Virus record (IMG/VR): IMGVR_UViG_3300033064_003504
Span: 1-47,502 of that record
DNA from: a virus
DNA length: 47,502 nucleotides
Reading direction: 5' to 3' (one strand)
Shown: positions 16,358 through 34,656 of the stretch, piece after piece
How positions within the stretch are numbered: the stretch's first letter is position 1
Layout of the letters: each line of letters starts with the position of its first letter
Program-made: the position numbers and the translations under genes
Notes under the pieces: model-generated
What the model saw: the letters and a program-made list of their open reading frames with translations, nothing else
What the model was told of the DNA's origin: nothing
Databases searched by the model: none

Positions 16358-16417
16358 GAATTCATGATAGCAGTAATCACTGGAACAATGCCATGTAATG
16401 CAGTACACTACCGGTTG
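16358..16417. promoter_or_regulatory. Divergent control region between XRE gene and virion operon
   Basis: 60 bp separate the XRE gene (+) and the virion operon (-). AATGC occurs twice as a direct repeat 10 bp apart (AATGCCATGTAATGC). No strong -35/-10 pair is visible on either strand. An operator for autoregulation by the XRE protein would be expected here, but this is inference. Confidence 0.35.
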
Positions 16418-16792
16418 ATGGTATCAAATTCATATCACCTGGTTAAAGTTTATCGTCTTCGATCAAGTATGACTACAATCAGTCTTGCAAAGCGCGCGAA
16501 GCTGACCCCGAGAATAATTCACATGATAGAAAAGGATCCAGATTACAACCCTACAAGGAGAACAATGATTCAATTAAGTGATGCGCTAGGTGTTCCTCCG
16601 AGTGTACTCTTCTTCCCTGAAGAGGAGCTCGACAAGAGACAGATGATCAGCACACTGGTTCTTTTTTGCATGGAAAACCTCAACATAGATGAAGCAGATG
16701 TCCTAAGGACCTTGCAAAATATGTCCCTTAACACACATCCAGTGCTTTCTCCTTCTGATACTCATACTCCGCATCTTCCAGCTGCTTCATAA
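16418..16792 (+). CDS. XRE-family helix-turn-helix regulator
   Basis: 124 residues. A Cro/C1-type HTH covers about residues 5-60: helix 2 with SLAKRAKLTPRIIHMIEKD, then the typical NPTRRTMIQLSDALGVPPSVLF end. The rest is a short, partly disordered tail. The start chosen keeps helix 1; a longer frame to 16364 is possible. Its last 65 bp overlap the end of the terminase gene on the other strand. It is the only recognisable DNA-binding regulator in the genome, so it is the prime candidate for the operator described at 26243, 31300 and 36108. Confidence 0.75.
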   Translation: MVSNSYHLVKVYRLRSSMTTISLAKRAKLTPRIIHMIEKDPDYNPTRRTMIQLSDALGVPPSVLFFPEEELDKRQMISTLVLFCMENLNIDEADVLRTLQNMSLNTHPVLSPSDTHTPHLPAAS

Positions 16793-19256
16793 ATGCCCTT
16801 GGAGTCCTTGGAATGATAGGATTTGAATCCTCTTCGCTGAACAATGGGGCTGCACAGGACAAGATTAGGTAACGTAATGCATCCATAGCATGATCGCAGT
16901 TACTTGTCAAGACTCCATTAGCATAGTACATACCATTAGCAGTTTTCAAGTTGTAAACTGGCTTCTTTCCTTGTCTTGTGTCCTGCACTGATAGTACACG
17001 CCCCTGGACAATGTTGTGATGGATTATTTTTGTGAACATATTTCTTTTTACCGCATGTTTTACAGATTCTCCATTCATAGTATCTATTCTCTTTATTATA
17101 TTGATTAGATCTACAGTTTGAATTGCAGAATGCTGGAGGTCTCCACTTTCTAACGATCTTGGATTTAAATTCTTTATTACAGAATTTACAAATATACGTT
17201 TTAAGTGGCTTCTCGTTTTGATGAATTCTTGTATGGTCTGCAATATCGAGACACATAAGATTTTGAGGATGGTTATTAAGAGAATTACCGTCCTCGTGAT
17301 GAATCTGACACCCTGTAGGAATTTCTCTCTTATAAACCTTTTTCCATAGCTCAACATGGTACCTCTTTTTTGTGGAAGTGTTGACAAAATAGTCTCTTCT
17401 TGATCTTCCTGATTTTGTATCAGGAGCATCTGGATAACGATAATACACAACTCCGTCAAGCCAGACTTCTTCCCTTGATCCATGGGCATCGCTTCTTTGT
17501 TTTCTATTACGCATATATGATCATTGTATTTTATGTCACTCATAGCAGTCAACCCTTTTCCTATAACAAAAACCTGATGACCTGGAGTCGCTTCAAGTGT
17601 AGTATTCTTTGTTTGTATAATCATTGTTTCTTCAACACCTGTACAGTTAGACTCTAGTACTTCAGTGAATCCTCCTGCGCTCAACACAAAATCTCCCACA
17701 GAAACATCTGATATACTTTTTTCTCCAGAGTTGGTAATTACATTGACATTTTTAGGAAAACATTTCTTAATCGGGACTTCATACAGAGATTGATCGAGAG
17801 TCCCTACTCTTTCCTTTGGCCAGCGATACAGATCAAACTCCTCTCGGGTTTTAATGCAGTCCTTTGTAATGAATAGCCTTGGTGATCCAAGCACAGATTC
17901 CCCGTCCTCAGTTCTCTTATATGGATTCGGATGCATAGGATCCCACTGCAGGTACTCCTTCATACGCGCTAGACCTGAAGCAATATCATTCTGCGTTCCA
18001 GGACGACAGATAACCTTGTGCCTTCTGAAGTCATCGGCAATAGAGTATCGGTGCTCCTCTCCTGGCTTGTAGATAAAGTTCACCTGTGTCTTATTGAAGA
18101 TACTCGGGTCTGGGAACTTGATGTACACATAACCATCTGAGTCCATCGGTGCGTACTCATGGAGCCACATAGAAGCTTCTTTAATAGGGCAATCCCTTCT
18201 ATAGAATTCCCGGAAGACCGTGAAGTTGTTGTCATGATCCTGATTCACAAAGAGGAATACCATAGGGTTGGTCTGACCGTAGTCCATACAGATATCGAAG
18301 TTCTTGAAATCTTGACTATGGATCATATTGAGATTCTCATGGTATTCACCATAGACTTTTCCAGTAGAGAAGATGAAGGCTTCCTCTGGTTCTGACGGAT
18401 AGAGCTCAGGCATACGTTCTCGCAGCTCATACTTCTTATGGTCCCACCAGAGCATCTGCTCCTTTGAGAGAGGTGTTCCATCAGAGTTTCTGTACTTTGC
18501 TTCAATCACCTTACATTCATCTGGGAAGAATAGCCTGTCATCTGACTCCCAGTGTGTTGCATTCTGTGGATCATCGAACCAGGGGAAGAAGAGAGGTAGC
18601 CATTCTGGCTTCTCTCCTGACTGTAGTATATTCCAGTTATTCATGAAGGTTCGCTCAAACCAATTTCCTCTACCGTTGGCCGTAGACTCGCACAAACAGA
18701 CGTTTCCAGGCGATAGAGATTCAAGGGAGTCCTGAAACTTTGCCTCATCTTCGAAGTATGCAATCTCAGAAAAGTGAAGGTACGTCGGTGTCATACCTCG
18801 GGCTTCAACGTCAATGGAGTACTTGGATCCAGTGCGCTTCACTACGATCTCTGACTTCGTGGTGTACTCGAGCTCGGGCAAAAGACTTGGATTCGTATCC
18901 TGCAGAGTCTTAATGGCGAAGTTCGGGATATCATGGAACAGCTCTGTCACTGTCTGCTTACGGTGAGCAATGGAACGACACATCTGGTTCGGGCTGTATA
19001 AAGCCTTGTCCAGGAGATAGATAGCGATCCCTGTGGTTACTCCGAGCTTACGTGGCTTCAGGATGATGACGCGCTTATGGCCATCCTCTAGAGCCTGATA
19101 GATAATCCTCTGTGTCCTATTCGGGACAAAGATGATACGTCTACCCTCAAGCCCTCTGTTCTTTGTTCTGATACTGTATAAATTATTGAGTCGCCAGTAT
19201 TGATCTCCGGCAATTCTCTCGAGAGCCGACTGCTGATCCACCTGTGCATCTTGCAT
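16728..19256 (-). CDS. terL: Terminase large subunit, intein-containing precursor
   Basis: 842-residue precursor; 554 residues remain after removal of the intein (residues 499-786). ATPase motifs: Walker A-like KPRKLGVTT (67-75), Walker B-like YLHFSEIA (about 159-166), motif III CESTANG (189-195). The RNase H-like nuclease begins at DICMDYGQ (Asp325), and its last catalytic motif DHAMDALRY follows the intein. The protein translocates DNA into the prohead and cuts concatemers. A TTG six codons upstream is open, but TTG and its neighbours form an extended -10 (TGCTATACT), so the ATG at 19256 is preferred and the mRNA would be leaderless. Confidence 0.92.
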   Translation of the reverse strand: MQDAQVDQQSALERIAGDQYWRLNNLYSIRTKNRGLEGRRIIFVPNRTQRIIYQALEDGHKRVIILKPRKLGVTTGIAIYLLDKALYSPNQMCRSIAHRKQTVTELFHDIPNFAIKTLQDTNPSLLPELEYTTKSEIVVKRTGSKYSIDVEARGMTPTYLHFSEIAYFEDEAKFQDSLESLSPGNVCLCESTANGRGNWFERTFMNNWNILQSGEKPEWLPLFFPWFDDPQNATHWESDDRLFFPDECKVIEAKYRNSDGTPLSKEQMLWWDHKKYELRERMPELYPSEPEEAFIFSTGKVYGEYHENLNMIHSQDFKNFDICMDYGQTNPMVFLFVNQDHDNNFTVFREFYRRDCPIKEASMWLHEYAPMDSDGYVYIKFPDPSIFNKTQVNFIYKPGEEHRYSIADDFRRHKVICRPGTQNDIASGLARMKEYLQWDPMHPNPYKRTEDGESVLGSPRLFITKDCIKTREEFDLYRWPKERVGTLDQSLYEVPIKKCFPKNVNVITNSGEKSISDVSVGDFVLSAGGFTEVLESNCTGVEETMIIQTKNTTLEATPGHQVFVIGKGLTAMSDIKYNDHICVIENKEAMPMDQGKKSGLTELCIIVIQMLLIQNQEDQEETILSTLPQKRGTMLSYGKRFIREKFLQGVRFITRTVILLITILKILCVSILQTIQEFIKTRSHLKRIFVNSVIKNLNPRSLESGDLQHSAIQTVDLINIIKRIDTMNGESVKHAVKRNMFTKIIHHNIVQGRVLSVQDTRQGKKPVYNLKTANGMYYANGVLTSNCDHAMDALRYLILSCAAPLFSEEDSNPIIPRTPRAFMKQLEDAEYEYQKEKALDVC
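16936..17514 (-). CDS. HNH homing endonuclease nested out of frame in the intein
   Basis: 192 residues, in the -1 frame relative to terL. The HNH core is GCQIHHEDGNSLNNHPQNL (about 81-99), followed by DHTRIHQ. Two Cys4-type zinc fingers follow (CKFC with CNSNC; CKTCG with a Cys pair near the end). The last roughly 20 codons are dual-coded with intein block F. A TGA lies three codons before the ATG, so it is not a simple frame continuation. A promoter-like TTGACT-18-TACAAT ends 8 nt before the ATG. This is the likely agent of intein mobility. Its fold is clear; independent expression is inference. Confidence 0.88.
   Translation of the reverse strand: MRNRKQRSDAHGSREEVWLDGVVYYRYPDAPDTKSGRSRRDYFVNTSTKKRYHVELWKKVYKREIPTGCQIHHEDGNSLNNHPQNLMCLDIADHTRIHQNEKPLKTYICKFCNKEFKSKIVRKWRPPAFCNSNCRSNQYNKENRYYEWRICKTCGKKKYVHKNNPSQHCPGACTISAGHKTRKEASLQLENC
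17523..17552 (-). promoter_or_regulatory. Candidate leaderless promoter for the nested HNH gene
   Basis: TTGACT (17552-17547), 18-bp spacer, TACAAT (17528-17523); each box has five of six consensus bases. Transcription would begin at or next to the HNH ATG at 17514. It lies inside intein coding sequence, so it must satisfy two constraints at once. Confidence 0.55.
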
Positions 19257-19264
19257 ATATGGAG

Positions 19265-19273
19265 AGTATAGCA
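19265..19273 (-). promoter_or_regulatory. Extended -10 promoter of terL
   Basis: TG-C-TATACT on the minus strand, ending 8 nt before the terL ATG at 19256, with no recognisable -35 box. The spacing predicts a leaderless mRNA. TGC-TATATT at 31395 and TGC-TATTAT at 36165 share the same extended -10 form. Confidence 0.5.
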
Positions 19274-19281
19274 AATCGGAA

Positions 19282-20442
19282 ATGGAATTAATATATGAAA
19301 TGCTCTCACCTATGTATGGTGAACTTATGGGCTTAACCGATTTAGAAAATCAGAAATTCGATGACGACGGCAATGTGAAAACGCGGCCATCATCAGGAAT
19401 CACAAGTATAGTGAATAGCACAGCAGTATTACTTGCTGCAGGGGCTGTATACACTGGAATCTGGGAAGATGTTGATGATTATAATGCAGTTATTGTCGCC
19501 GTAAAGACAGATCAGAATGGTACATTCAGTGTCCAGTTCTCACCAGATGGAATAAACCAAGACTCTACACTCACTCGTTATTACAGGACCAATCAGATTG
19601 AACCACCTCATAGATTTACCGTTACACGTAAATATGTTAGGGTAGTCTTTACGAATACCAGTGCTTCAGATCAAACATATCTACGTCTACAGACAATGTT
19701 TGGAATCAAGGGGGATCTAAATGCACCTACGGACTCCATACTTGCACAGGACTTTGATGCTATTGTTGTACGTCCAACCAATTATAACGCTGAGGTAGCC
19801 CTAGGGCGAAGGCAAGGTGCAACACTCTGGAATAAGTTTGGATACAACTCAGATGTAGATATAGGAACAGAAGTTATTGCTTCATGGGGAGGAACATTTG
19901 TTCCAATGACAACAGCCAGGACTCTATCAGTTGTATCAACTGACGCAGCAGATGATGGTTCCCCAGCAGGAACAGGAGCTAACAGTATTATTATCTATGG
20001 TGTAGACGCAAACAGACAGGCTCAGACAGTTGTTGTAACAATGAACGGTACAACACCAGTCGTTACTACAGAGACATGGCTTGGTGTAAATCGTTTATCT
20101 ATATACATATCTGGCACAGGAAAGGTAAACGCAGGAACAATAACAGCTACAGCTACTACAGATTCAACAATACAAGGACAGATACCGATAGGAGTAGGAA
20201 CATCACAACAATGTATATTCTTCACACAGTTAGATCATCAGGCTATTACTGAATGGCTTACATTGAACACACTAAAGCAAGCAGGAGCTAACCCCGTAGT
20301 AACAATTAAAGGATGGGTGTATTCAGCAGTCTCCAATTCAAAATACGAAGTAGTAAGACATTCTATAGACACTGCCGTAGAGAACCATGTTGAACTAAAT
20401 CCACCACTCCCATTCCCAATAGGTGAAAGATCATGCTTCTAG
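19282..20442 (+). CDS. Virion structural protein ending at an amber codon
   Basis: 386 residues, beta-rich, Thr/Val/Asn-rich, with repeats of strand-turn elements such as LGVNRLSIYISGTGKVNAGTITATATT and a C-terminal segment YEVVRHSIDTAVENHVELNPP. It looks like a phage surface or tail-associated protein. It stands alone on the plus strand, divergent from terL by a few bases. The frame continues past the TAG for 26 more sense codons to a TAA at 20521, and the extension reads as a natural continuation of the last beta-strand. Starts at the 7th or 11th residue are also possible. Confidence 0.7.
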   Translation: MELIYEMLSPMYGELMGLTDLENQKFDDDGNVKTRPSSGITSIVNSTAVLLAAGAVYTGIWEDVDDYNAVIVAVKTDQNGTFSVQFSPDGINQDSTLTRYYRTNQIEPPHRFTVTRKYVRVVFTNTSASDQTYLRLQTMFGIKGDLNAPTDSILAQDFDAIVVRPTNYNAEVALGRRQGATLWNKFGYNSDVDIGTEVIASWGGTFVPMTTARTLSVVSTDAADDGSPAGTGANSIIIYGVDANRQAQTVVVTMNGTTPVVTTETWLGVNRLSIYISGTGKVNAGTITATATTDSTIQGQIPIGVGTSQQCIFFTQLDHQAITEWLTLNTLKQAGANPVVTIKGWVYSAVSNSKYEVVRHSIDTAVENHVELNPPLPFPIGERSCF

Positions 20443-34634: not shown

Positions 34635-34656
34635 TGTATTAAAGGGGTAAAAATAC

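Follow-up and report, generated by a model that had tools for sequence, protein, structure and literature searches.

The window, by which we mean the whole 47,502-nt stretch that was analysed (IMG/VR virus record IMGVR_UViG_3300033064_003504), carries on its minus strand a gene for the phage terminase large subunit (terL; PHROG terminase large subunit, E = 5.9e–19), whose reading frame passes without an internal stop codon through an intein placed at a motif of the nuclease domain. The gene and its intein are laid out as follows:

16728–19274, minus strand: terL reading frame (N-extein, intein and C-extein), 848 codons plus stop
17763–19274, minus strand: TerL N-extein, comprising the ATPase and the greater part of the nuclease domain, with ...VPIKK at its end
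16899–17762, minus strand: intein of 288 codons, Cys1 to Asn288
17760–17762, minus strand: intein Cys1
17508–17762, minus strand: N-terminal Hint half (blocks A and B), by profile match and structure model
17577–17588, minus strand: TxxH motif of block B (TPGH)
17010–17507, minus strand: stretch open in two frames, giving low-confidence filler in that of the intein and the HNH enzyme in the –1 frame
16899–17009, minus strand: C-terminal Hint half, with blocks F and G and the final residues ANGVLTSN
16936–17009, minus strand: stretch shared by intein block F and the coding of the HNH C-terminus
16899–16901, minus strand: intein Asn288, followed by the +1 Cys
16731–16898, minus strand: TerL C-extein, starting with the +1 Cys of CDHAMDALRY (nuclease motif)

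The hallmarks of cis-splicing are present, namely Cys at position 1, TPGH in block B, and a C-terminus in which the terminal Asn of ...TSN is followed by Cys. The Pfam Intein_splicing profile matches both intein ends (E = 1e–7, just under the curated cut-off), and comparison of the intein profile with the gp41-1, DnaX and DnaB inteins finds similarity at its two ends only (E about 1e–19). An AlphaFold2 model, built without the last two residues of the intein, gives pLDDT values of about 96 for both Hint halves and mostly about 50 for the filler between them; Foldseek with this model returns gp41-1 as the best match, and also DnaX and DnaB inteins. Block F is divergent, and the penultimate residue is Ser where most relatives have His; the penultimate His of block G is usual rather than universal, the residue varying among active inteins, and we do not treat the Ser as disqualifying. 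An Rfam scan of 16700–19300 gave no match to group I or group II introns, and on the absence of such a match together with the open frame we reject a group I intron. The canonical large-intein layout, with the endonuclease in frame between the Hint halves, is absent, the HNH gene of the window lying in the –1 frame, as is the fractured split-intein layout, the terL frame being continuous. At the 3' end of terL, a convergent and overlapping ORF (16364–16792, plus strand) appears helix-turn-helix-like by eye.

The second gene is read from the same strand, within the intein:

16936–17514, minus strand: nested HNH endonuclease gene, ATG start, 192 aa plus stop, frame –1 relative to terL
17221–17358, minus strand: HNH core (H53 ... 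H72 H73 D75 N80 N81 N85 H94 H98)
17113–17190, minus strand: first zinc ribbon (C109 C112 / C130 C134)
16996–17064, minus strand: second zinc ribbon (C151 C154 / C169 C173)
17523–17552, minus strand: TTGACT-18-TACAAT, a pair resembling a promoter that ends 8 nt upstream of the HNH ATG (weakly supported)

The nested ORF matches Pfam HNH_3 above the curated cut-off (E = 1e–7) and the PHROG HNH endonuclease family (1.5e–15), and its structure model has a mean pLDDT of 90.5; Foldseek with this model gave no confident match, the best being I-HmuI (E = 0.2). In an alignment of 67 sequences the HNH core residues occupy invariant or near-invariant columns and the eight zinc-ribbon Cys residues invariant ones, and the window's enzyme keeps every invariant HNH and zinc residue.

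Over 17009–17514 neither the HNH frame nor the intein frame contains a stop codon, the third sense frame having 24 and the antisense frames 6–13. When the HNH amino acids are held and synonymous codons are sampled at the local G+C content, 5.4 stops are expected in the intein frame, and a stop-free frame has P = 0.0004. The preliminary description of this DNA had proposed a terL frame open through 288 intein codons, a middle portion without intein character, a full 192-residue HNH/zinc-finger enzyme in the –1 frame, absence of stops from both frames, and dual coding of block F; its coordinates hold, and each of these points is upheld by the results above.

Relatives were collected by HNH similarity from three IMG/VR profile scans, one scan of GTDB genomes, and phage records, and were dereplicated at 90% to 193 loci, which are related, so that the counts are not numbers of independent events. 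A continuous intein with an out-of-frame HNH gene (hereafter nested) was found at no fewer than 125 dereplicated loci, mostly of phages, 120 in the phase of the window and 5 in the other; in 26 of the 193 the intein is split or broken and the HNH lies between its halves, in 36 the HNH gene occurs with no detectable intein, and 5 are incomplete. An in-frame HNH was seen once, in the dCTP deaminase of Aphanizomenon phage CL131, and is a distant HNH. The 152 loci with an HNH and both intein halves thus divide into 125 nested, 26 split or broken, and 1 in-frame. The first nested relatives were 'terminase large subunit' proteins of Rhodobacteraceae phage LS06-2018-MD07, Acinetobacter phage Highwayman and Tetrasphaera phage TJE1, and one metagenome contig likewise has the HNH out of frame and the intein open. 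The extein is nearly always TerL (Terminase_6N, Terminase_3), with the intein at or within a few residues of the same nuclease motif, and Cys1, TxxH, the terminal Asn and the +1 Cys/Ser are retained almost everywhere. One nested-HNH intein (L173, 2728–4758) lies instead in a DegT/DnrJ/EryC1 aminotransferase, so the design is not tied to TerL. The five other-phase loci (L187, L225, L226, L230 and L252) may reflect an independent origin or a phase shift. At another locus (L124, 1368–3427) a single TerL seemingly holds two successive inteins, in each of which an HNH is nested out of frame.

Split inteins with an HNH gene or its remnant inside also occur in terminases of cultured phages (L093, Lactobacillus phage CL2; L096, Brochothrix phage BL3; L097, Vibrio phage 1.238.B), and in three nested cases from cultured phages (L004–L006) the annotation gives terL only, leaving the nested gene hidden. 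On a tree of the HNH proteins, which omits the window because its HNH match, split by a missing segment, fell below the coverage filter, and on which some metagenomic 'free' calls may conceal divergent inteins, the nested, split and free states switch repeatedly; the nested state changes 17 times, at least 8 of these being forced by well-supported branches. Nothing closely related to the intein or the TerL of the window itself turned up in a pattern search, so that the evidence on selection and homing comes from relatives only.

The window-type intein frame had no stop in any of the 70 nested copies of the first survey (5.9 under the synonymous null), a result that is partly definitional since the nested class requires an open intein frame; what is informative is therefore the number of loci in that class and its contrasts with the other classes. 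The same frame in other copies of the HNH family averages 8.4 stops in split and 6.3 in free-standing genes. An NTA codon (Leu/Ile/Val) preceding A or G in the HNH frame would put a stop into the intein frame; the count is 0 of 961 for nested copies, 58 of 146 for split ones and 57 of 213 for free ones. For the five other-phase loci it is their own intein frame that lacks stops, the usual frame having 6–10. The chance of a stop-free intein frame is typically about 0.0025 per locus, yet 125 of the 152 loci with both intein halves are nested. The suggestion of the preliminary description that the dual-frame arrangement would be a distinct way to build a mobile intein is supported: on a search of relatives it recurs, nearly always in TerL, and nested copies show the opposite stop pattern to split and free ones.

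In 11 disjoint close pairs, substitutions were distributed 225/165/406 over HNH codon positions 1/2/3, HNH-frame identity was equal to or greater than that of both other frames in every pair, and the identity of the filler in the intein frame resembled that of the third, non-coding frame. Taken with stop avoidance, the pLDDT values and the end-only profile matches, these substitutions show that the DNA between the Hint halves encodes a protein in the HNH frame and, in the intein frame, filler kept clear of stops, the former under protein-level selection and the latter selected only against stop codons. Stops or indels in homologues, which had been named as counting against the proposal, occur only in a few damaged copies: at L002 (4467–5189) a stop breaks the HNH frame and the intein frame is still open, which looks like the stage of the homing cycle in which the endonuclease decays and splicing is retained, and at L045 (4100–4215) an 11-bp duplication (GGGGGTTTGTT) shifts the intein frame, through recent damage or assembly error.

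A recent gain is indicated in Acinetobacter phage Highwayman, whose terL contains the complete element and otherwise shares 98.9% identity with the terL of phage Acba_21, which is empty. The N-extein DNA of the two is 99.4% identical, with many further Acinetobacter phages matching closely, and flank identity is 100% over the 300 nt upstream of terL and 99.5% in the portal gene. With the element removed, 15 of 1302 nt distinguish the two terL genes, 10 of them falling between –25 and +12 of the junction, and the differences include two amino-acid changes, one being the native Leu to the +1 Cys that splicing needs. The DNA of the 981-bp Highwayman element was absent from every other phage record searched. 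The pattern fits recent homing with a short co-conversion tract. Acinetobacter phage BP10, which has a free-standing HNH upstream of terS that is 50% identical to the Highwayman HNH, was dropped as the empty-site partner in favor of Acba_21, its TerL being only 27% identical.

In textbook mobile inteins the endonuclease is an in-frame domain. The 'fractured genes' of Dassa et al. (2009; cited in PMC3653736) are reportedly split inteins whose halves flank a free-standing endonuclease; they resemble the present case in that the endonuclease has a gene of its own, placed where an intein usually holds its endonuclease, a form shown by split loci of the surveyed terL genes (L093, L097), and differ in that the intein frame of the window and of 124 other loci is unbroken, so that a single chain would splice in cis. 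The nearest solved splicing domains, by sequence as well as fold, are those of gp41-1 and of DnaB- and DnaX-type inteins, the structures solved being those of mini-inteins or split inteins in which no endonuclease gene is nested. HNH genes that stand free next to terminase genes (Acinetobacter phage BP10, Pseudomonas phage PAE1, Salmonella phage Shemara) belong to the same family, at about 36–50% identity to the Highwayman copy, but are not in inteins and have stops in their other frames.

Splicing and endonuclease activity have been shown experimentally for mycobacteriophage TerL inteins (PMC5050341), which lie in the ATPase domain and have the endonuclease as part of the intein, whereas ours lies at the nuclease motif with the enzyme in another frame. 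Closest in gene arrangement is the ShiLan element, an HNH/zinc-finger gene lying out of frame in mycobacteriophage DNA methylases with the host frame open and with a homing-like distribution; no splicing domain is detectable in it, and its authors were unable to assign it to either inteins or introns (PMC11855218). Its HNH is in the same phase as that of the window (the 'third frame'), as we confirmed in Starcevich, but the insert in the window has both Hint halves with their catalytic residues, so that the host protein could be restored. Searches of an open-access library found no description of a continuous intein with an endonuclease in another frame; a preprint (10.1101/2025.01.02.630785) may overlap, since as cited in PMC11855218 it concerns actinobacteriophage inteins with 'non-canonical architecture' and may describe similar cases. 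On present sequence comparisons, the intein with an out-of-frame endonuclease appears to be a widespread and largely overlooked mobile-intein design.

Several other explanations were weighed. Sequencing or assembly indels might have displaced an HNH that is really the in-frame domain of a normal intein, and the duplication that breaks the intein frame of L045 is a change of that kind, but such an account needs two compensating errors per locus in 125 loci, finished genomes of cultured phages included, and must face an HNH frame with its own start and with its own stop inside block F, and an intein frame purged of stops; we reject a sequencing slip because the arrangement recurs, and give it next to no credence. 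Ribosomal frameshifting by –1 from terL, yielding a TerL-IntN-HNH fusion, would agree with the –1 frame of 120 of the 125 nested copies, yet that bias is explained by the expected stops being about a quarter of those for the other phase (null 5.9 versus 21). Frameshifting is very unlikely because in the window a TGA in the HNH frame, 9 nt before the ATG, confines any shift to the inside of the HNH N-terminus; against it also stand the five loci in the other phase and the Shine-Dalgarno sequence that about half of the nested copies have at the internal start.

The penultimate Ser and the divergent block F would suit a ShiLan-like insertion that does not splice, with TerL retaining the insert or with the terL of the window dead; we think this improbable, given that the Hint halves, Cys1, TxxH, terminal Asn and +1 Cys are all in place in a predicted fold like those of the gp41-1 and DnaB inteins, and that a 288-residue insert at the nuclease motif DHAMDALRY is expected to disrupt TerL. 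The nested HNH might alternatively be an overprinted fossil, a relic that is no longer made, as the want of a Shine-Dalgarno site in the window and the broken HNH frame beside an open intein frame in L002 might suggest; the intact set of invariant HNH and zinc residues in the window, the protein-level selection on the HNH frame in close pairs, and the recent gain in Highwayman make this unlikely.

We therefore favor, as very probable, a mobile intein at the nuclease-domain motif of a phage TerL, with the homing endonuclease encoded by a gene of its own that overlaps it. This reading draws on the two open frames, the conserved catalytic residues, the recurrence, the substitution pattern and stop avoidance, along with one recent gain of a whole element, with junction co-conversion, in a relative; from these we infer splicing, cleavage and the start signal used in the window. 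Ribosomes on terL would read through in the intein frame to give TerL-N, N-Hint, a filler of about 165 residues, C-Hint and TerL-C; the Hint halves would fold together, excise the filler plus themselves, and join TerL. Internal initiation in the other frame would give the HNH/zinc-ribbon enzyme from the same DNA, the enzyme would cut intein-less terL alleles, and repair would copy in the whole element, including the +1 Cys.

On a broader reading, about which we are evenly divided, overlapping-frame inteins would be a major, overlooked class of phage mobile element, bridging free-standing homing genes and split inteins: a free HNH would enter a mini-intein, the host frame would be purged of stops for cis-splicing, and loss of that purge together with a new start would give a naturally split intein, some lineages gaining a promoter for a terL-independent, leaderless mRNA of the enzyme. 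In the arrangement described here one DNA stretch does two jobs, in a frame selected for its enzyme and a frame selected merely to stay open, and the 125 loci, with two phases and with split and free-standing sister forms, make a large natural set for the study of overlapping genes. Two old questions also become testable, namely by what route inteins acquire endonuclease genes and from what source split inteins of the gp41-1 kind originate. ShiLan, as published, may stand at one end of this continuum.

How the HNH enzyme might be started is a sub-question of the overlapping-gene reading rather than a competitor to it. The preliminary description had given the nested gene its own leaderless promoter, the TTGACT-18-TACAAT pair. 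The pair is at the position claimed, but the 3-kb region has 6 such pairs against 6.8 in shuffles, so that by itself it is not above chance, and under the synonymous null it has p = 0.19; it can be called suggestive only. The HNH of the window has no Shine-Dalgarno site upstream, which is usual for the genes of this phage.

Among relatives a Shine-Dalgarno sequence lies within the intein coding just before the HNH start in 60% of 70 nested loci, against 21% of control windows, and in 50 of the 118 loci of a larger nested set. In these 118, with intein amino acids held fixed for the null, –35/–10 pairs matching at least 9 of 12 positions just before the start occur in 17 loci against 4.8 expected (maximum 12 in 100 draws), and pairs matching at least 10 of 12 in 10 loci against 1.0, several of the promoter-bearing loci being closely related. 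At 10 loci exactly 6 nt separate the –10 from the start codon, and promoter and Shine-Dalgarno sequence tend to exclude each other (Fisher P = 0.03); smaller peaks of promoter-type motifs, arising from the coding, are present at other distances. One of the two best leaderless-type promoters in the set, TTGACG-16-TATAAT-6-ATG, is that of the aminotransferase intein L173. A leaderless mRNA from an own promoter thus fails to stand out in the window but is indicated in a minority of the family, about half of which has a Shine-Dalgarno sequence instead, and we advance it only tentatively for the nested HNH.

Shine-Dalgarno sites are at background level across the genes of the window. A TTTACCCC-like motif, absent before the nested HNH, lies about 13–16 nt before the start codon of many of them, and may be an unusual start signal or a short-leader promoter. 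It has 9 exact copies against 0.76 expected (0 of 100 shuffles), with sites for example at 34650, 34279, 35459, 35830, 33688, 20922, 1229 and 3001 (minus strand) and 32030 (plus strand).
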